From an uncultured Fidelibacterota bacterium (GTDB taxonomy: Bacteria > Fidelibacterota > Marinisomatia > Marinisomatales > UBA1611), in NCBI GenBank assembly GCA_902559415.1, contig CACEHW010000005.1, positions 1 through 46,051 on the forward strand: a stretch of DNA of 46,051 bases, written 5' to 3'. The stretch's first letter is position 1. Every line of letters starts with the position of its first letter. Both the position numbers and the translations under genes were made by a program. The notes below the pieces were generated by a model. The model ran no database searches, was not told the origin of the DNA, and worked only from the letters and a program-made list of their open reading frames with translations. Positions 4,911 through 13,786 of this stretch are shown here, piece after piece.

Positions 4911-5360
4911 TTAATCAGCAGTTATATTTTTATATATTTTATTTAATACTGTTTTAAATAAATTAATTTCTTGGTCAGTGATACCTTTGCGTACTTCATT
5001 TGAGGTTTGTTCCATTATGGGCAACGAACTTTTCATCATCTCTTTACCTTTATTACTTAGGAACACTCTTTTTATCCTTTGATCTAATTGATCAGGAACT
5101 CGAACCATTAGGTTCCTTTTTTCAAGAGTATCAATTATCTTCGTTACACTAGTTTTATCTTTACCACAGTACTCAGCTATATCTTTTTGAGATATACCTT
5201 CAGTTTTCCAAACTGGCCCTAAAACCAACCACTGGTCTTGAGAAATATTTATCCCAGCACTTTGAGCATTTTGACCAAATTTTTTAGTGCACAACCTATC
5301 GACCTGTGATAATAACATTCCAATATCAATATCACTTTTTAGTTTTTTATTATTTGGCAT
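4911..5360 (-). CDS. MarR family transcriptional regulator
   Basis: MarR winged-helix signature (GISQKDIAEYCGKDKTSVTKIIDTLEKRNLMVRVPDQLDQRIKRVFLSNKGKEMM). Confidence 0.92.
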   Translation of the reverse strand: MPNNKKLKSDIDIGMLLSQVDRLCTKKFGQNAQSAGINISQDQWLVLGPVWKTEGISQKDIAEYCGKDKTSVTKIIDTLEKRNLMVRVPDQLDQRIKRVFLSNKGKEMMKSSLPIMEQTSNEVRKGITDQEINLFKTVLNKIYKNITAD

Positions 5361-5392
5361 AATATAAAATTAAAAATAAAATTGTTGCACAT

Positions 5393-6745
5393 TCAACTTT
5401 TATTCTGATTCTTTTCGATATAGCTTTTAACATTAAATTTTCTTTTACAACCATTAAAATTCATATAACGAACCTTTCCATATACCGGTCTTTCAAACCA
5501 AGCTCTATCATGAACGCCACCAATACTCCATGCTATCCCGGTATAGCCATTTGGATCTCTACCATCAATTTGATATTTATCATTTAATTCTATCGCTGTT
5601 TGCTGAGCTATTTCTGGGCTAGGACTCCATTCTAAAATTTTTTTTGCCCAGTACATCCTCATAAAACCATGCATCTTCCCTCTAATTATCATTTCATTTT
5701 GAGCTGCATTCCATAATTCGTCATGCGTTTCAGCAGATTCAAATTTTCCAGGAGAATATATAAAATCCCTCTCATCATTCCTGTGTTCATTTAATGTTTT
5801 CTGAGCCCAGAAATGAAATCCATCAAAAAAATCATAGTTTTTTTCATATAAACAAAAATTATCTGCTAACTCTCTCCTTACTATCATTTCTTCTAAAAAA
5901 GCCTCTTTGTCTTCAAATGGGAGTGTTGAATTTTTTATTTCAAAGGCAACTCTCTGTGGGGCAATTTGACCAAAATGAAAATACGGACTCATATTTGATA
6001 ATTTTTTAAGATTAGGATCATTTCTTTGCAAGTTATAATCAATTAAATGTGATTTTAATTTACTAAGATGAGTTTTTGCATTTATTTCACCTGGTTTAAT
6101 CCAATCAATTGGCTTTACGCTTTCATCTAGGTCTAACGATTTCAAAATTTTTCCCCAGAGAATATCCTTAGAACTATTCTTATTTTTAATTGGGTGCTTT
6201 TTTATTTTAGGGATTTCAGTTAAATATTCTGGGAGCAGCTTTTTTATTTTTGGTCTAATTGTATAGGCAGCAAACTCCTTTTTGTCTGATGTGATCCATG
6301 CTGGGATAATATTATGAGCGTCAACCTGGGAAATAGGAATCTGTGTATTTTCAAAAACTTTTTTTAAACGATTTTTATAAACTTTTAGCGGGCTAAAATC
6401 TGTAATTAAATGCCCAACTTTATTTTTTTCTATAAATTCAGGTAGTTTTATATATGTTGGCCCGAGTAATAAATGAAAATTTATATCTAAATCATCTAAT
6501 GTTTTTTCAACTTCTTGAAGACCTTTAAATAGAAAATCATACTGTCTTAAATTTGATTCTGAGTAATTATTATTAATGTTGAAACAAACTTCTAATGGAA
6601 CATTATTATCTATCGCTATTTTTTGAGCTTCAATCAATGCCCAGTTATCATTAGCTCTTTTATCTCTTACCATCCAATATAGGACAGACTTACCATTAAA
6701 AGACCCCTCTCTTAAATGGCGCATTCTTCCTAATGTACTGGTCAT
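5393..6745 (-). CDS. Class II CPD photolyase (deoxyribodipyrimidine photolyase)
   Basis: Class II motifs: SVLYWMVRDKRANDNWAL, RGKMHGFMRMYWAKKILEWSPSPEIAQQTAIELNDKYQIDGRDPNGYTGIAWSIGGVHDRAW. Confidence 0.95.
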   Translation of the reverse strand: MTSTLGRMRHLREGSFNGKSVLYWMVRDKRANDNWALIEAQKIAIDNNVPLEVCFNINNNYSESNLRQYDFLFKGLQEVEKTLDDLDINFHLLLGPTYIKLPEFIEKNKVGHLITDFSPLKVYKNRLKKVFENTQIPISQVDAHNIIPAWITSDKKEFAAYTIRPKIKKLLPEYLTEIPKIKKHPIKNKNSSKDILWGKILKSLDLDESVKPIDWIKPGEINAKTHLSKLKSHLIDYNLQRNDPNLKKLSNMSPYFHFGQIAPQRVAFEIKNSTLPFEDKEAFLEEMIVRRELADNFCLYEKNYDFFDGFHFWAQKTLNEHRNDERDFIYSPGKFESAETHDELWNAAQNEMIIRGKMHGFMRMYWAKKILEWSPSPEIAQQTAIELNDKYQIDGRDPNGYTGIAWSIGGVHDRAWFERPVYGKVRYMNFNGCKRKFNVKSYIEKNQNKS

Positions 6746-6762
6746 GGGGGAGGGTTACTTTA

Positions 6763-7644
6763 CTAAACGAGCTGTTTAAGCTCTTTGAAAGTGATGAAAG
6801 TTTTCTTTATTGTATTAGAAATATCTGGAAGCAACTCTATACCAAGTCCTCCAAAAATAACATCTACATCTAGCTTCTTTGCAGTTTTGTAAATGGATGT
6901 TACCATATCTGCTGTTTTCATAATATTATCGCCAACAACTGACATACAACATTGCATATTACATAAATAAAAAACGATTAAATCGATATTTTTGTTTTTT
7001 ATTACTTTATTTAAATCTCCTAACTCAGCATGAGAACCAGTGTTATAAACATTATATCCTCTGTGTCTAAGAATAACTTCAGACATAACAACTCCTAGAT
7101 CAGGAAGGTTATCTTCAAAATTTACACAAAGAGCTGATTTGCCATTAAAAGAACCATTTGGCTTATTATCATTTAATGATTCTGTAGCACGGGTGATAAT
7201 TTTTCTACTGATGAAAGCTTCTGCATGAGACAAATAATTTTCATGAAGAGCCTTCTCAACTATCATACTACCAGGATCTACAACCTCATCAAATAGAGTC
7301 TCAACATCTACGTTATTCATGTAAGAACCAGATATAATTGTCTTAACAGTAGATTCATCAGACTCGATACTGGAATTAGCTAGCTTATGACTTAATTCAG
7401 AGAAACTTTTTCTCTTGATTAATTCATATATTTTTTTATGTTCAAAGTTTTCTAAAGCAACATCGTCATTTTTTGAAGCTTTTTTATTTTCTTTATAGTA
7501 ATCACGAACATTCTGCATTGTGAATTTTCTATGCCCACCTGCAGTTTTATGACAGTTTATAGTGCCGTTGTCAGTCCATCTCTTAAGTGTTGAAATATTT
7601 ACACCTAAAATGTCTGATACTTCTTTTGAATTAAGATACTTCAT
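6763..7644 (-). CDS. MerR-family regulator with CarH/LitR-like C-terminal (B12-binding-like) domain
   Basis: MerR HTH (YLNSKEVSDILGVNISTLKRWTDNGTINCHKTAGGHRKF) followed by a helical-bundle-like and Rossmann-like domain (ALCVNFEDNLPDLGVVMSEVILRHRGYNVYNTGSHAELGDL...VDVIFGGLG). Confidence 0.88.
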   Translation of the reverse strand: MKYLNSKEVSDILGVNISTLKRWTDNGTINCHKTAGGHRKFTMQNVRDYYKENKKASKNDDVALENFEHKKIYELIKRKSFSELSHKLANSSIESDESTVKTIISGSYMNNVDVETLFDEVVDPGSMIVEKALHENYLSHAEAFISRKIITRATESLNDNKPNGSFNGKSALCVNFEDNLPDLGVVMSEVILRHRGYNVYNTGSHAELGDLNKVIKNKNIDLIVFYLCNMQCCMSVVGDNIMKTADMVTSIYKTAKKLDVDVIFGGLGIELLPDISNTIKKTFITFKELKQLV

Positions 7645-7683
7645 GATAGAGTGTAATAATAAAACGTATAAAAAATAAAGTTT

Positions 7684-7697
7684 TTTTTGAGCGTTTT
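7684..7697. promoter_or_regulatory. Shared 14-bp box TTTTTGAGCGTTTT (copy 1), divergent promoter region of the MerR regulator
   Basis: Identical 14-mer recurs at 11990-12003 in the other intergenic control region of the same locus. Confidence 0.5.
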
Positions 7698-7714
7698 GAA
7701 CTTTTTTTTATAAT
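7687..7714 (+). promoter_or_regulatory. Putative sigma70 promoter for 7757..8254: TTGAGC-N16-TATAAT
   Basis: -35 TTGAGC 7687-7692, -10 TATAAT 7709-7714; overlaps the shared box TTTTTGAGCGTTTT. Confidence 0.5.
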
Positions 7715-7756
7715 AAAGTATTTGAAAAATTATATAATGATTTTGTATAATCTAAA

Positions 7757-8254
7757 ATGAAATTAATTAATCAATTACTTTTACTTATTTTCTTCTCTAA
7801 TCAAGTTTTTGCTGAAAACGATTATGGCATTGAGAAAATGCCCCATTATGTATGGGACTCAGACTCCTCCAATGTTGGAAAAACAGAAATCTGGTTTCAA
7901 GATTGGACTGACTACACCAGATTATTTATTAAATCCATTAAAGACTCTAGCTCTATTGATAAACATCCTTATGCGAAAACTGATTATGATAAAGAATATT
8001 TAAATGCTAAAGAATATCAAAAGCCTAATTACATTCAACTTTTAGGAAATATTAAATGGACCAGTAATCAAAATTGGTCCGAGAATTATTCAAACAGCTT
8101 TGAATGGTATGTCGACAGAGATCAAAATTGGTACTACAACAACAAAAAACTTAGTGGCAGTGCAAAGATCTTGAAAGGCAAGTTATATCTTCAAATTAAA
8201 GATTATGACGATATAATTATAGATACCGTTTCTAGATACCGAAAATATAAATGA
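7757..8254 (+). CDS. Hypothetical secreted/periplasmic protein with signal peptide
   Basis: MKLINQLLLLIFFSNQVFA signal peptide; Trp/Tyr-rich mature region; no family recognised. Confidence 0.7.
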   Translation: MKLINQLLLLIFFSNQVFAENDYGIEKMPHYVWDSDSSNVGKTEIWFQDWTDYTRLFIKSIKDSSSIDKHPYAKTDYDKEYLNAKEYQKPNYIQLLGNIKWTSNQNWSENYSNSFEWYVDRDQNWYYNNKKLSGSAKILKGKLYLQIKDYDDIIIDTVSRYRKYK

Positions 8255-8385
8255 AAAAAACTAAGAAAGTTTCTTTTGTAGCTAAATATTTTTTTTCAGT
8301 CTTTATAAAATGGTCTATTATTGCAATTGTTATGATGGCAATAATCATTATACCTGTTTTATTGATTACTGCCTTTTCAAAATAA
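8251..8385 (+). CDS. 44-aa single-TM basic microprotein
   Basis: ATGA overlap with the upstream stop; translation MKKTKKVSFVAKYFFSVFIKWSIIAIVMMAIIIIPVLLITAFSK. Below the ORF-track length cutoff. Confidence 0.55.
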   Translation: MKKTKKVSFVAKYFFSVFIKWSIIAIVMMAIIIIPVLLITAFSK

Positions 8386-9861
8386 ACTTTTAGTAAAGTC
8401 TTCTGCCTCGGCACTTAGTCTTTTCTTTGTATCTATATCTTTTTTATCATACATCGCAACCATCATATTCATTCGAGGATTTTTTCTAAAAAAATCTCTA
8501 TTCCTATCCACAAATGACCAATAAAGAGAGTCCCAAGTAAAGCACCAGTCTCCTTTTTTATAATCACTCATTTTTAAAATATAATTACTACCACTTATGT
8601 ATGGCTTGGTAGCTAGTAGTCCGCCATCAGAAAATTGACTCATTCCATATACATTTGGGACCATAACCCAGTCGTAAGAATCAATAAACATTTCCATAAA
8701 CCATTTATAGACAGAATTTGGTTTTATACCTATTAATAGCATCATGTTACCTAAGATCATTAGTCGCTCAATATGATGAGCATAACCACTATTTAGACAT
8801 TTTTTAATAGTGTCATCTAAAGGTTCTATGCCTGTCGTTGCGTCATAAAATGATTTTGGCATTGATTTATTATAATTCCAAAAGTTTGAATTCCGTTGTT
8901 TAACACCGTCAGCAACATATATACCTCGCATAAATTCTCTCCAACCAATTATTTGCCTAATAAAGCCTTCAAGAGAGTTAAGTGGGATAGCATTATCTGA
9001 TGAAAAATCCAAAACTTGTTGAATGATATCATTTGGAGTGATTAATCCTATATTTAAATAAGGAGTGATAATACTATGGAAAAGTGTGGATTCATTTTTA
9101 ACAATTGCATCTTCATAAGATCCAAAATGAATTAATCGCTTTTCTAGAAATGAATGAAAAGAGCTCAATGCCTGACTTCTTGTAACAGGATAATTAAAAT
9201 TATCCATCATGCCAAGGTTATCATTATATGATGAGTTAATTAAATCTTTTGCTTTAGAAAGCTTATCATTTTGATAAATGATCTGAGAAATTTTTGGTGG
9301 CTCCATCGTTTTAGGAAAACGCTTTCTATTCTCATGATCAAAACTCCATTTACCACCAACAGGAGTCCCGTCATCCTTTAATAGAATGTTATATCTCTTA
9401 CGCTGTTTTTTGTAAAAGGCAGCCATAAAATGTGATTTTTTGTTGGTAAAATGATCAAAGACGTCTGATTCTTGAAGCATAAAACCTGGTGTATCATATT
9501 TATATGATTTTATAGATAAACTATTAATTGCATGGTCTAGTCTTTTTATGATTGTATAATCAACCGGGTCACAATAGTGAACTTCATTTATATTGTTTTT
9601 TTTAAAAAATGAATCAAAATAATTTTCTCCACTTAATTCTCTTTCAGTGACTAACTGGACATCATATCCCCTATCAATTAACTCGCTTTTATAGCTATCT
9701 GTGGAAAGAAGATGAAGAAGAATTTTATTTTTATGAAACCGTACGGGATATTTTTTATCTATAAAAAATAAAGGGTCTCTGATAATAAAGGTTTTACGAC
9801 TTTTTTTTAAGGCGTCTGAAGTCGAAAATAATTGGTGAGGGAAAATAATTGTAGCATCCAA
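8377..9861 (-). CDS. Cryptochrome/photolyase-related protein (FeS-BCP / (6-4) photolyase-like family)
   Basis: Family motifs GFIRQIIGWREFMRGIY, GYAHHIERLMILGNMMLL, WFMEMFIDSYDWVMVPNVYGMSQFSDGG, KPYISGSNYILKMSDY. Confidence 0.92.
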   Translation of the reverse strand: MDATIIFPHQLFSTSDALKKSRKTFIIRDPLFFIDKKYPVRFHKNKILLHLLSTDSYKSELIDRGYDVQLVTERELSGENYFDSFFKKNNINEVHYCDPVDYTIIKRLDHAINSLSIKSYKYDTPGFMLQESDVFDHFTNKKSHFMAAFYKKQRKRYNILLKDDGTPVGGKWSFDHENRKRFPKTMEPPKISQIIYQNDKLSKAKDLINSSYNDNLGMMDNFNYPVTRSQALSSFHSFLEKRLIHFGSYEDAIVKNESTLFHSIITPYLNIGLITPNDIIQQVLDFSSDNAIPLNSLEGFIRQIIGWREFMRGIYVADGVKQRNSNFWNYNKSMPKSFYDATTGIEPLDDTIKKCLNSGYAHHIERLMILGNMMLLIGIKPNSVYKWFMEMFIDSYDWVMVPNVYGMSQFSDGGLLATKPYISGSNYILKMSDYKKGDWCFTWDSLYWSFVDRNRDFFRKNPRMNMMVAMYDKKDIDTKKRLSAEAEDFTKSLF

Positions 9862-9887
9862 AGTTCAATACCTTTATACATTAATTA

Positions 9888-10427
9888 CTATAAACTTTGG
9901 ATAATCTCAGAACTAAGAGGACTGGTATTACTCCCAAAAGATTTAATTAAATTTCCATTCTCATCAATTAAATATTTATAAAAATTCCACTTGGGTTTTG
10001 AGTCATTCCACCCATTCAAATCACTATTTGTTAGCCACTTGTAAACAGGGTGAATTGGTTTCTTTCTAATATTTATTTTGCTCATCACTGGAAATTTTAT
10101 ACTATAGTTTGATTCACAAAACTGAGCAATTTGACTATCACTACCTGGCTCCTGAGATCCAAAATCATTGCAAGGAAAAGCAACAACCTGCAATTTATCA
10201 CCATGAGAATCTTGTAATTTTTGTAATTCTTTGTACTGTCTAGTGTATCCACAATATGACGCTACATTTACAATTAATATTTTTTTACCACTAAATTCTT
10301 TAAAAGACTTTTCTTCACCTAAAATATTTTTGAAATTAATATTGTAAAAATCTGAGGACATTATATCACCTTTTGTAAAAACTATATTGATAGTAAAAAG
10401 TATGTATAATAAAATGTTTTTCATCAT
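9888..10427 (-). CDS. Glutathione peroxidase family protein (Cys type) with N-terminal signal/TM
   Basis: VNVASYCGYTRQYKELQKL, FPCNDFGSQEPGSDSQIAQFC, KWNFYKYLIDENG. Confidence 0.92.
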   Translation of the reverse strand: MMKNILLYILFTINIVFTKGDIMSSDFYNINFKNILGEEKSFKEFSGKKILIVNVASYCGYTRQYKELQKLQDSHGDKLQVVAFPCNDFGSQEPGSDSQIAQFCESNYSIKFPVMSKINIRKKPIHPVYKWLTNSDLNGWNDSKPKWNFYKYLIDENGNLIKSFGSNTSPLSSEIIQSL

Positions 10428-10720
10428 TTTGGATATCTAATGAGTTCAAATTTATTGGAATCTGGAGATTCAACATAGACAGATTCTGATCCATCACGGT
10501 GCTTCACTGGAGTACCAAAGTCCTCAATATTCTCTCTTTTAATTGCGATATGAGGTGGGTGTTGATCTGGAACTACTAAGGCTAATTTTGTATTATCAAA
10601 TTTTAGTAAAGCCCAAGTATCATCTTCAAATTCAATTTCACATTTAAACATCTTTTTATACCAAAGTACAGAATCTTTGATTGAAGTGGTTTGGATTGCA
10701 ATATGGTCAATTTTATCCAT
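10424..10720 (-). CDS. VOC/glyoxalase superfamily protein
   Basis: DHIAIQTTSIKDSVLWYKKMFKCEIEFEDDTWALLKF...VYVESPDSNKFELI; 4-nt overlap with GPx. Confidence 0.85.
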   Translation of the reverse strand: MDKIDHIAIQTTSIKDSVLWYKKMFKCEIEFEDDTWALLKFDNTKLALVVPDQHPPHIAIKRENIEDFGTPVKHRDGSESVYVESPDSNKFELIRYPK

Positions 10721-10722
10721 TT

Positions 10723-11433
10723 CTAGCTCGCTATTTTAGTTGTTGAAAGTCCACCATCAATATTAATAACTGAACCTGTTACCCAACTAGTTTTATCGGC
10801 AATTAAGGGAATTACAAATTTTGAAACATTTTGTGGTGTTCCAACTCTACCAATGCTATGCATTTTTCTTGAAATTTCTAGAGACATGTCGTTAGAAAAA
10901 ATACTTTTAGATAAATTTGACTCAACTAAGCCCAAAGCAATAGCATTAACTCTTATATTGTTTTTCGAGTAAGTTGCTGCTGCAGATTTTACTAAGCCTT
11001 CTACACCAGCTTTTGCTGCAGCTATGGCTTCATGATTTACAAGACCAATGTTTGCAGCTGCTGAAGAAAAAAACAAAATGTTACCACCATTTTTTCTCAT
11101 TAGAGGAATAGTATTTTTTAAAATAAAGAACGATGATTTCAAATTGATATCAAGGGTGGCATCTAAATCTTCTTCTTTCGTTAAATGCGCTGGCTTTAAA
11201 AATATTGAACCAAGGCAATTAACAACAGAATCAATAGTTTCATATTGACCCTTAATAATTGAAAACAATTCATCTACAGAACTACTACCATTATAGCGCC
11301 ACTCAATTGAATCATGATCATGGACTTTTTCGCCAGAGCTAGATGTTATTATCAAATTCGTATCTGAGCCCTGTAGTTCTTCCACTATTGATGAACCAAT
11401 TGCTCCGGAACCGTTTATTATTAAAGTATTCAT
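10723..11433 (-). CDS. Short-chain dehydrogenase/reductase
   Basis: Rossmann start IINGSGAIGSSIVEEL; NNIRVNAIALGLVES; C-terminal GSVINIDGGLS. The usual YxxxK tyrosine is not evident (HEAIAAAKAGVEGL). Confidence 0.88.
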   Translation of the reverse strand: MNTLIINGSGAIGSSIVEELQGSDTNLIITSSSGEKVHDHDSIEWRYNGSSSVDELFSIIKGQYETIDSVVNCLGSIFLKPAHLTKEEDLDATLDINLKSSFFILKNTIPLMRKNGGNILFFSSAAANIGLVNHEAIAAAKAGVEGLVKSAAATYSKNNIRVNAIALGLVESNLSKSIFSNDMSLEISRKMHSIGRVGTPQNVSKFVIPLIADKTSWVTGSVINIDGGLSTTKIAS

Positions 11434-11445
11434 TTGGTTAAAATC

Positions 11446-11688
11446 TTACTGACAACAACTCGGACATGCTTCTTTCTCTTTACCATATCTTGGTACTTCA
11501 TCGTAGTATTTGATGGTAGTCTTACCATTGAATACGTGTTTTTGCCATACTATTCTACACAAATTACATACCTTTAATTCTCTATCTGCAACTTTACCAT
11601 CAAGGAAGTATCGGGTAGATTTTTTCTTTGGCTCTTTGCGCTTTTCTGTATTTTCTAATCCAGCAGCTACAGCTTGTAATATTGTCAT
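11446..11688 (-). CDS. Small Zn-ribbon-like protein
   Basis: Two Cys pairs: CNLC...CPSCC; Lys-rich N-terminus. Confidence 0.65.
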   Translation of the reverse strand: MTILQAVAAGLENTEKRKEPKKKSTRYFLDGKVADRELKVCNLCRIVWQKHVFNGKTTIKYYDEVPRYGKEKEACPSCCQ

Positions 11689-11690
11689 AA

Positions 11691-11951
11691 CTAGACTCCT
11701 TTAGTACTATTTATTTGATCTTTATCTGATGGTGAATTATATAATGCTTGGAAAAGCTTACCATCTTCAGATGTAATGCCTGACGAAACGCTCCATCCAG
11801 CTAACAACATTTTATCAACCGCAATTACTAAACTTGGTAGATGATGTTTTGAACAAGATAATATAGCATACCTAATTCCTTGATCAATTTCGACATACTC
11901 ACCAATTCGAGTATTTTTTACGTCTTTTTTAATACCATTATTAATTACCAT
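11691..11951 (-). CDS. Small hypothetical protein, possibly DUF1737-like
   Basis: RYAILSCSKHHLPSLVIAVDKMLLAGWSVSSGITSEDGKLFQALYN resembles the short DUF1737 pattern; preceded by a near-consensus promoter. Confidence 0.5.
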   Translation of the reverse strand: MVINNGIKKDVKNTRIGEYVEIDQGIRYAILSCSKHHLPSLVIAVDKMLLAGWSVSSGITSEDGKLFQALYNSPSDKDQINSTKGV

Positions 11952-11956
11952 GGCAT

Positions 11957-11986
11957 ATATTATTTAACCTAAATGGTAAATGTCAA
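11957..11986 (-). promoter_or_regulatory. Sigma70 promoter TTGACA-N18-TAATAT for the 11951->8377 operon
   Basis: Reverse complement of 11957-11986: TTGACATTTACCATTTAGGTTAAATAATAT. Confidence 0.65.
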
Positions 11987-11989
11987 GTA

Positions 11990-12013
11990 TTTTTGAGCGT
12001 TTTAAGCGTTTTT
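11990..12013. promoter_or_regulatory. Shared box (copy 2) with tandem AGCGTTTT units: TTTTTGAGCGTTTTAAGCGTTTTT
   Basis: Identical TTTTTGAGCGTTTT as at 7684-7697, just upstream of the -35 of the 11951 promoter; overlaps the 3' end of the desaturase gene. Confidence 0.5.
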
Positions 12014-12730
12014 TAGTCTGATTATTTTTATTTTGGAGAGAAATTTGGTTATAATATATCCAGGGTCAACCTCAAACCAACGTCTTGAAAACTTTAAATT
12101 CGTTGGCTTACTATGATGATTATTTTGGAATAATTCTCCCATCATTAAAAAATCAATAGGAAGTGTGTTTTTAGAGTTATCTATTGTTTTTTTATCGTTA
12201 GTATACCCGTAACGATGGCCACACCAATTGACGATTGAACCATGGAGAGGCCCCATAATAAAATGCACAGGTAACAATGCATACTGCCAACTAGCTGTTG
12301 TAAACTCAATGTATAATAAAGTATAAAACCCAATAAATGAAAGCCTTACTATCCAATTATCACCTAGCTTTTCTAATAAAGGCCATCTAGGAACGTCAAA
12401 ATCATAATTTGAATAATCTTTTTTGTTAAGTCTCACAGATTCATAATGTTTTATTGTGTTAAGATTCATCTTTATAATATTCTTGGAAAAAATTGGCGAA
12501 TGAGGATCTTTTTCGGTGTCACTATGTTTATGATGGAGCCTATGAAGAATAGCATATGCCCTAGGGTTTAAAAAAGAAGAGCCTTGGGTTAAAAATGTAA
12601 GAAAGAAAAAAATCTTTTCCCAAAAATTGGACATTGTAAACATTTGGTGAGACGCATAACGATGCAAGAAAACTGTCTGAAAAAATAGACTACTGTACCA
12701 ATGCGCTATAAAAATAAAAATTATGACCAT
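12002..12730 (-). CDS. Fatty acid desaturase, membrane di-iron type
   Basis: His boxes HRYASH, HRLHHKH, NNHH; hydrophobic segments. Confidence 0.9.
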   Translation of the reverse strand: MVIIFIFIAHWYSSLFFQTVFLHRYASHQMFTMSNFWEKIFFFLTFLTQGSSFLNPRAYAILHRLHHKHSDTEKDPHSPIFSKNIIKMNLNTIKHYESVRLNKKDYSNYDFDVPRWPLLEKLGDNWIVRLSFIGFYTLLYIEFTTASWQYALLPVHFIMGPLHGSIVNWCGHRYGYTNDKKTIDNSKNTLPIDFLMMGELFQNNHHSKPTNLKFSRRWFEVDPGYIITKFLSKIKIIRLKNA

Positions 12731-12745
12731 GTGTGATTATAATAT

Positions 12746-13786
12746 TTAATCGGAAGATTTTACAAACCTATAATGTGAGACGCCCCATTCTCTTCCATTA
12801 TCATAACCAAAGAGTACTTCACAAGCCATGAAAAATATCCGCCACCTTTGAAACCAAACTGAAGCATTATCCGCTCCATATGTTTCACTGAATATGGACA
12901 TAATTTCATTTTTATTGCTATCCATTTTATTAAGCCAAGCAAGAGAAGTTTTTTCATAATGCGAACCATTAAAACGCCAACTCATTTCAATGTTCAATTT
13001 TTTCTGAAAATACAAAAGTAATTGATGCGATGGCATAATACCTCCACTAAAAAAATTGCGTCCCATCCAATCTCCTTCACCATCCTCTGTAAAAGGATAA
13101 ACTAATGTTCTGTGAGTAAATATATGAATGAATAGCTTCCCACTAGGCTGAAGCCAACTAGATACTTTATCTAACAGTTGTTCGTAATTCCTCATGTGTT
13201 CAAACATTTCAACCGAAACAATCCTATCGAATTTCTCATCAATTGTAAACACATTCATATCTGCAGTAATTACCTTAACATTTTCCAAGCCTCTTTCTTG
13301 ACATTTTTTTTCAATAAATAGTCTTTGATCTTTGGAATTACTCACCGCAGTGATCTGACTTTTAGGATAATTTTCTGCCATATACAGTGTCAACGAACCC
13401 CACCCGCAACCAAGCTCAAGAATGCTATCGCCATTAGTGATTTCTGCCCTTTCAGCACTTAATTTGAGCATAGCAAATTCCGAATCATCTAGATTCGTAA
13501 CACCTTCAGGCCAATATCCAGAACTATATTTTAAATGCTTACCTAAAGCATTTACGAAAAAATCAGGTGGTACTTCATAATGCTGCTCATTTGCTTTATC
13601 AGGAACATAGGCGATTGAACTACCTTTCATCTCATTTACCCAATTTTGATGATGGGCTTCTACTTCGGAAACGGACCTAGATTTTTCCCATAAAAGTCTT
13701 TCTTTTTGCATTCTTCTTATACCGCTTCGAATCAAAAAGTCAGGCATAATTCCTTTTTCCGCGAAATCAATTAATTTTTTAATCAT
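12746..13786 (-). CDS. CFA-synthase superfamily SAM-dependent methyltransferase (short form)
   Basis: QHYEVPPDFFVNALGKHLKYSSGYW, SILELGCGWGSLTLYMAENYP, RIVSVEMFEHMRNY. Confidence 0.9.
   Translation of the reverse strand: MIKKLIDFAEKGIMPDFLIRSGIRRMQKERLLWEKSRSVSEVEAHHQNWVNEMKGSSIAYVPDKANEQHYEVPPDFFVNALGKHLKYSSGYWPEGVTNLDDSEFAMLKLSAERAEITNGDSILELGCGWGSLTLYMAENYPKSQITAVSNSKDQRLFIEKKCQERGLENVKVITADMNVFTIDEKFDRIVSVEMFEHMRNYEQLLDKVSSWLQPSGKLFIHIFTHRTLVYPFTEDGEGDWMGRNFFSGGIMPSHQLLLYFQKKLNIEMSWRFNGSHYEKTSLAWLNKMDSNKNEIMSIFSETYGADNASVWFQRWRIFFMACEVLFGYDNGREWGVSHYRFVKSSD

Follow-up and report, generated by a model that had tools for sequence, protein, structure and literature searches.

The gene considered here raises the question of what a CarH-type regulator beside two photolyase genes could sense once the residues that hold its light-sensitive cofactor have been replaced. 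CarH keeps its targets repressed in darkness, and photolysis of AdoCbl breaks up its tetramer (PMC8156234), while class II LitR is B12-less and slaved to LOV proteins, and classes IV-V are unexplained (PMC9758184). The window, namely, the whole stretch of 46,051 nucleotides that was analysed, belongs to an uncultured Fidelibacterota bacterium. The initial annotation described a CarH/LitR-like regulator at 6763-7644 that appeared to have lost its B12 photosensor residues and might respond to redox, metal or a partner photoreceptor.

The open reading frame at 6763-7644 is real and encodes a CarH-derived protein of 293 aa; its coordinates stand, and its strand is corrected to minus because the plus strand over the same interval contains many stops. 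A MerR-type helix-turn-helix occupies residues 3-53 (7486-7638, minus strand; Pfam HTH_17, 8.6e-9; MerR_1, 4.4e-7), a four-helix bundle residues 67-158 (7171-7446, minus; AF2 model and alignments) and a B12-binding domain residues 171-273, the last being below the Pfam threshold (24.6 bits vs a cut-off of 32.1). The AF2 model (pLDDT 84.3) had the full-length Thermus CarH (TtCarH, 5c8f) as its best PDB match, with other B12 photoreceptors and AppA also among the fold matches. The modelled fold is that of CarH, comprising a MerR helix-turn-helix, a bundle and a B12 fold.

The residues that define the photosensor are replaced. In the loop NFEDNLPDLG (residues 175-184; 7093-7122, minus), P181 was aligned on the cobalt-ligating His of the E/DxHx2G motif in 3/3 alignments (phmmer to 8jbs, a profile to MtaC 2i2x and hhalign to 22 canonical relatives), in agreement with the earlier reading of EDNLPDLG; Pro was present here in 23/23 clade members vs His in 44/44 canonical relatives. 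An alternative cobalt-ligand His was looked for and none was found within residues 141-193 of the translation; thus, a heme His near this position is also absent. The profile-profile alignment to the 22 canonical relatives by hhalign (E 1e-56) matched the Trp of Wx9EH to L133 and its Glu-His to A143-F144 in an ungapped register, and the reported loss of the bundle motif is therefore upheld with the register shifted by one residue. The Gx41SxV/T motif after strand beta3 of CarH is likewise replaced, by CNMQCC with eight additional residues, and H140 of the bundle is fixed in the window's sub-lineage. The claimed loss of the photosensor residues is confirmed at the His, Trp and Glu-His positions, and because the positions that define CarH carry other residues, which are fixed throughout the clade, loss of the CarH-type AdoCbl-light mechanism is strongly supported at the sequence level. 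AdoCbl binding by this regulator in the CarH manner would be very unlikely. Lineage-wide loss of B12 use was rejected, as metH was detected in 53/61 relatives, although not in the window's own incomplete genome; B12 use persists in the relatives, and the change is therefore specific to the regulator.

The Cys cluster first noticed as YLCNMQCCMS is also real. CNMQCC (C228-N-M-Q-C232-C233, residues 228-233; 6946-6963, minus) lies in an 8-residue beta3-alpha3 insertion; the hhalign gap at this loop was exactly 8, and the spacing from G203 to G265 was 62 residues in 22/23 clade members and 63 in the other, vs 54 in 39/41 measurable canonical relatives. P181, E177, D178, D182, C228, Q231 and C232 were identical in 23/23 clade members, the window included, and C233 in 22/23, the remaining member having an ambiguous X. 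Neither the Pro at the His position nor the insertion was found in the canonical CarH-type relatives (0/44), and the cluster is far beyond chance. The 23 members of this Marinimicrobia clade included orthologues 54-86% identical to the window protein, hosted by Candidatus Marinimicrobia (SAR406; GTDB Fidelibacterota) and by one MAG labelled Flavobacteriaceae, which may be misassigned; the search was queried with HTH peptides, and members in other phyla may be missed. The 44 canonical relatives came from Marinimicrobia, Calditrichota, KSB1, Ignavibacteria, Myxococcota and others, and fit the published definition of CarH (Wx9EH, His, Ser of SxT, GG; PMC8156234) except for the Gly of ExHx2G. C173 was rejected as a clade marker and as part of a new site, given that Cys occurs there in 26/44 canonical relatives too. 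Whole-gene pairwise dN/dS within the genus was 0.013-0.045 where dS was calculable, several comparisons being saturated. Plain decay of the pocket was rejected because clade-wide invariance and low dN/dS, as expected under purifying selection, indicate a pocket that is conserved in a new form.

A phylum-wide search with fetched regions revealed a second sub-lineage of seven proteins from one family of another order in the same class. These proteins carry Pro in place of the His, Leu in place of the Trp and the CxxQCC insertion as well, and keep the Glu-His; other pocket residues differ between the two sub-lineages despite the common Pro, Leu and CxxQCC. Both sub-lineages formed one group against canonical members in the tree (support 100/99). 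H140, H205 and Glu-His loss were discarded as markers of the variant since not every protein of the second sub-lineage shows them. The minimum common to both sub-lineages is therefore Pro, Leu and CxxQCC, and the Glu-His was lost later or separately. From these comparisons, we infer that Pro, Leu and CxxQCC define the variant, which is proposed as the CxxQCC clade; the window regulator carries both the Pro at the cobalt His and the CxxQCC beta3-alpha3 insertion. In another CarH-like group (L102, L109, L111 and L114), the B12 residues are degenerate and the Cys insertion is absent. Loss of the B12 site in CarH-like proteins probably happened more than once. A class-wide search centred on the genome of L067 gave no recognisable class II/IV LitR but turned up further CarH-like proteins that are degenerate and have no Cys motif (L102 and L114 among them), and no class II/IV LitR sequences were found among the viral contigs or plasmids searched.

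Both photolyase genes reported beside the regulator were identified. A class II CPD photolyase lies 17 bp downstream (5393-6745, minus; TIGR00591, 587.7 bits over a cut-off of 550) and is likely co-transcribed with the regulator. The other gene (8377-9861, minus; PF04244) encodes a photolyase-related protein of the DPRP/PhrB-CryB family. Aligned to the (6-4) photolyase PhrB (5kcm), this DPRP shows no Fe-S cluster cysteines: the C..C segment that follows SDY is missing, and Leu stands opposite an upstream Cys of PhrB. The SDY segment is likewise short in the DPRP of relatives wherever readable, and the window protein would be a natural Fe-S-less member of the PhrB-like proteins. A divergent ORF of 165 aa (7757-8254, plus) has no Pfam match, and its relatives also lie near operators. 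Further upstream, an ORF of 80 aa (11446-11688, minus) resembles by eye the operator targets of relatives (CxxC...CPxC); together with L125, L139 and L141 it belongs to a set of 80-95 aa ORFs that follow operators and carry paired CxxC/CPxC, with no Pfam family for the one tested.

An operator-like 9-bp direct repeat recurs at these loci, with the consensus AACGCTCAT-AACGCTCA from 70 sites, and a repeat close to GCTCA(T/A)AACGCTCA was present upstream of 22/22 orthologues examined. The window contains AAAAGTTCAAAACGCTCAAAA before the regulator-photolyase pair (7685-7705, minus; PWM score 22.2) and AAACGCTTAAAACGCTCAAAA at 11991-12011 (minus; PWM score 24.2), and shuffled windows scored at most 9.7. 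The second site lies 4 bp before the -35 box of a sigma70-like promoter, TTGACA-N16-AATAAT (11959-11986, minus; 11/12), the joint best-scoring promoter-like site in 5300-12800, and is followed by small ORFs, SDR, VOC, GPx and DPRP in that order. Gene order points to two operons, regulator-photolyase and small ORFs-SDR-VOC-GPx-DPRP. For CTCAWAACGCTCA, 31 matches were listed in 61 genomes vs at most 2 for the reversed-pattern control (sign test against one control match, 8e-9, with independence overstated as the genomes are related). Co-occurrence of sites with a detected Cys-type regulator in the window's family was modest (7/11 vs 5/22, Fisher p 0.03), and at least one apparent absence is a contig end, the contig of G025 stopping inside DPRP. 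A perfect operator-like site elsewhere in the window's own genome (L154:2874; contig C4:19877) is situated between two minus-strand ORFs and has no obvious target on its own strand. Several of the distal sites (L123, L132, L134 and L145-L149) share by eye CAAATAGATT or TGTCAAA-like words approximately 45 bp downstream, not a CTTGACA box; these words are possibly a second promoter type.

The location and conservation of the 9-bp repeat suggest that the regulator binds it. The same type of repeat was found upstream of canonical B12-type regulators (L015, L016, L017, L040, L059 and others), and G045, which has a canonical regulator, carries sites at the regulator's own gene and at a DUF2878-CFA operon; the second sub-lineage has TGCACGTTT-TGCACG with the same 9-bp period. 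Sites in relatives precede rhodopsin (L026 and L028), an FAD-binding photolyase-type protein (L123), VOC/SDR/GPx genes and DUF2878-lipocalin-amine oxidase-DUF1365-CFA operons of the CFA/furan-lipid type. The repeat lies about 125 bp upstream of the rhodopsin genes at L026:6107 and L028:6093, and the sites suggest that some Marinimicrobia include proteorhodopsin in this regulon. In gene content, the candidate set resembles photo-oxidative regulons elsewhere, namely, those of PplR (PMC9758184) and of sigmaE-ChrR, the latter with furan fatty acids (PMC6852236). A RudS-type protein (2-thiouracil desulfurase and DUF1722; L150:15023-16012) is encoded three genes downstream of a canonical CarH-type regulator, an arrangement that fits the light-operon link of such proteins (PMC11417400), and an ORF in L190 is similar-looking. 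We infer that the DNA recognition architecture and the targets persisted while the sensor changed. The initial phrase "appears to have lost" was thus an understatement: the loss stands, but the pocket has taken on a new, conserved form, with the DNA target and regulon apparently retained.

What replaced AdoCbl as the input was then considered. Among 61 relatives, no NCRFLQ-type motif was found in a LOV-like coding frame when exact matches were sought (the window's own genome being 65% complete), and all 9 motif matches lie in short non-LOV frames, by which LOV was rejected as the partner; no BLUF gene was found in the same 61. The known class II LitR-LOV route therefore looks unlikely. A ChrR-type cupin was present in 2/61 relatives, neither in the window's family. 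TRTAYA-N12-TRTAYA with at most two mismatches gave 39 matches vs 52.8 expected, and the LitR box TGTACA-N12-TGTACA is not enriched in the window.

The Cys loop is favoured as a direct sensor of oxidants made by light, or of metal or redox state, because AdoCbl is unlikely, no LOV or BLUF gene was found in the relatives, ChrR-type cupins are nearly absent and the gene set is of the photo-oxidative type. On balance, we lean evenly between accepting and doubting that the protein is a CarH-derived repressor whose corrin pocket was rebuilt as a thiol/metal, possibly heme, sensor of redox or photo-oxidation, with both the cofactor and the direction of regulation putative. The regulator with its rebuilt AdoCbl site would bind the 9-bp direct repeats beside the -35 box of photoprotection promoters, those of regulator-photolyase and of the operon leading to DPRP, and would presumably repress them in the quiet state. 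Where the corrin pocket used to be, the three Cys may, less surely, form a thiol switch or a metal/Fe-S site that light-generated oxidants (singlet oxygen and peroxides) would modify, whereupon the regulator would lose its oligomer or its grip on DNA and the photolyase and lipid-protection genes would be induced. However, activation is also conceivable for sites that precede a complete -35/-10 promoter, the three Cys by themselves may have a structural role, and model confidence within the sensor fold is lowest at the Cys loop (residues 231-240, mean pLDDT 64). The original proposal of a signal other than AdoCbl and light is strongly supported as regards the loss of that mechanism, and the invariant CxxQCC would favour its redox or metal option. 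The broader claim, that the 8-residue CxxQCC insertion marks a new sensor class of the CarH/LitR family in which a thiol/metal (Fe-S, Zn) or heme site reads photo-oxidation directly and governs genes for photolyase, rhodopsin and membrane-lipid protection via the ancestral operator, is tentative and somewhat less probable than its denial.

The main alternative, which we consider unlikely, is that the regulator itself is blind and is released by a separate photoreceptor, perhaps the adjacent DPRP/cryptochrome-like protein. PmlR2-PmSB-LOV provides a precedent (PMC9758184), DPRP adjoins the regulator in most loci, and CryB of the same PhrB/CryB family influences light- and singlet-oxygen-dependent gene expression in R. 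sphaeroides (PMC3320616). However, neither a LOV motif in a LOV-like frame nor BLUF was found in the 61 relatives, no DPRP neighbour was detected at the Cys-type loci L030, L032 and L035, and the fixed CxxQCC at the cofactor pocket is left unexplained. The partner photoreceptor of the initial annotation looks unlikely as LOV or BLUF, given the 61 relatives, and may be a cryptochrome-type protein, the adjacent DPRP. A somewhat weaker candidate is a SCHIC-like sensor whose pocket holds heme, as in AppA, or another tetrapyrrole through Cys or His ligands. The AppA SCHIC domain has a longer, eight-residue beta3-alpha3 loop and Leu for the cap Trp (PMC9144470), matching the eight extra residues and L133 of the regulator; AppA is among the fold matches, and a gene of the SOUL heme-binding type regularly lies near the regulator. 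This reading is weakened by the position of the AppA His, two positions from the cobalt His, in a region where the regulator has none (residues 141-193), and by H140 and H205 not being universal in the second sub-lineage. It is improbable that the sensor domain serves solely as a CarA-like oligomerisation scaffold, with induction via an antirepressor, for instance one equivalent to CarS. CarA has no Wx9EH, works independently of B12 and has its repression lifted by CarS (PMC8156234), but an invariant CxxQCC insertion shared by the two sub-lineages is not what a mere scaffold would predict. Least probable is an unusual binding of AdoCbl or another corrinoid without a His ligand (base-on or Cys-ligated), for although the CarH fold is retained and relatives use B12, other residues occupy the Trp, His and Ser-x-Thr positions alike, and the 8-residue insertion falls in the tail-binding loop.

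With direct sensing by the Cys loop as the preferred reading, the locus appears to record a natural sensor swap, in which lineages of one phylum place either a B12-photoreceptor-type or a B12-free Cys-loop regulator over one common DNA element and a light-stress regulon that is largely unchanged. It offers a concrete candidate operator and regulon for the light response of uncultured SAR406/Marinimicrobia, proteorhodopsin promoters included, and the three cysteines make the question of what B12-less LitR classes sense directly testable. In the papers searched, no description was found of the CxxQCC insertion, of a sensor change over a shared operator or of CarH work in Marinimicrobia. B12-less LitR regulators of photolyase genes are already known (PMC9758184; VCA0056, PMC5241685). 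Classes II and IV were compared by published description, so the CxxQCC variant may overlap with an existing LitR class, and this possible overlap is the main limit on its putative novelty.

Compared with CarH and class I LitR, the regulator shares the MerR helix-turn-helix, helical bundle and B12 Rossmann fold, a direct-repeat operator near the -35 box and light-related targets; it differs in the His-to-Pro change, the lost Wx9EH, the CxxQCC insertion in place of SxT and a repeat period of 9 bp, against 11 bp in the published account of CarH (PMC8156234). Class II LitR (PmlR2/PplR of Pseudomonas) is likewise a B12-less LitR-family repressor of photolyase, cryptochrome and lipid genes (PMC9758184), whereas, by description, its LOV partner has no counterpart found here and its operator, TGTACA-N12-TGTACA or TGTA(C/T)A, is different. 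The MerR protein VCA0056 of V. cholerae is similar by description, as it adjoins phr VCA0057 and is needed with ChrR for the blue-light response (PMC5241685). CarA of M. xanthus is also a CarH relative working without B12 (PMC8156234), but it keeps the canonical cobalt-binding motif and has no Cys insertion described. The closest structural precedent is the AppA SCHIC domain, a repurposed B12-type domain with a longer beta3-alpha3 loop and a Trp-to-Leu cap (PMC9144470); AppA keeps its heme His and is not a DNA-binding MerR protein, whereas the regulator is without a His in that loop.
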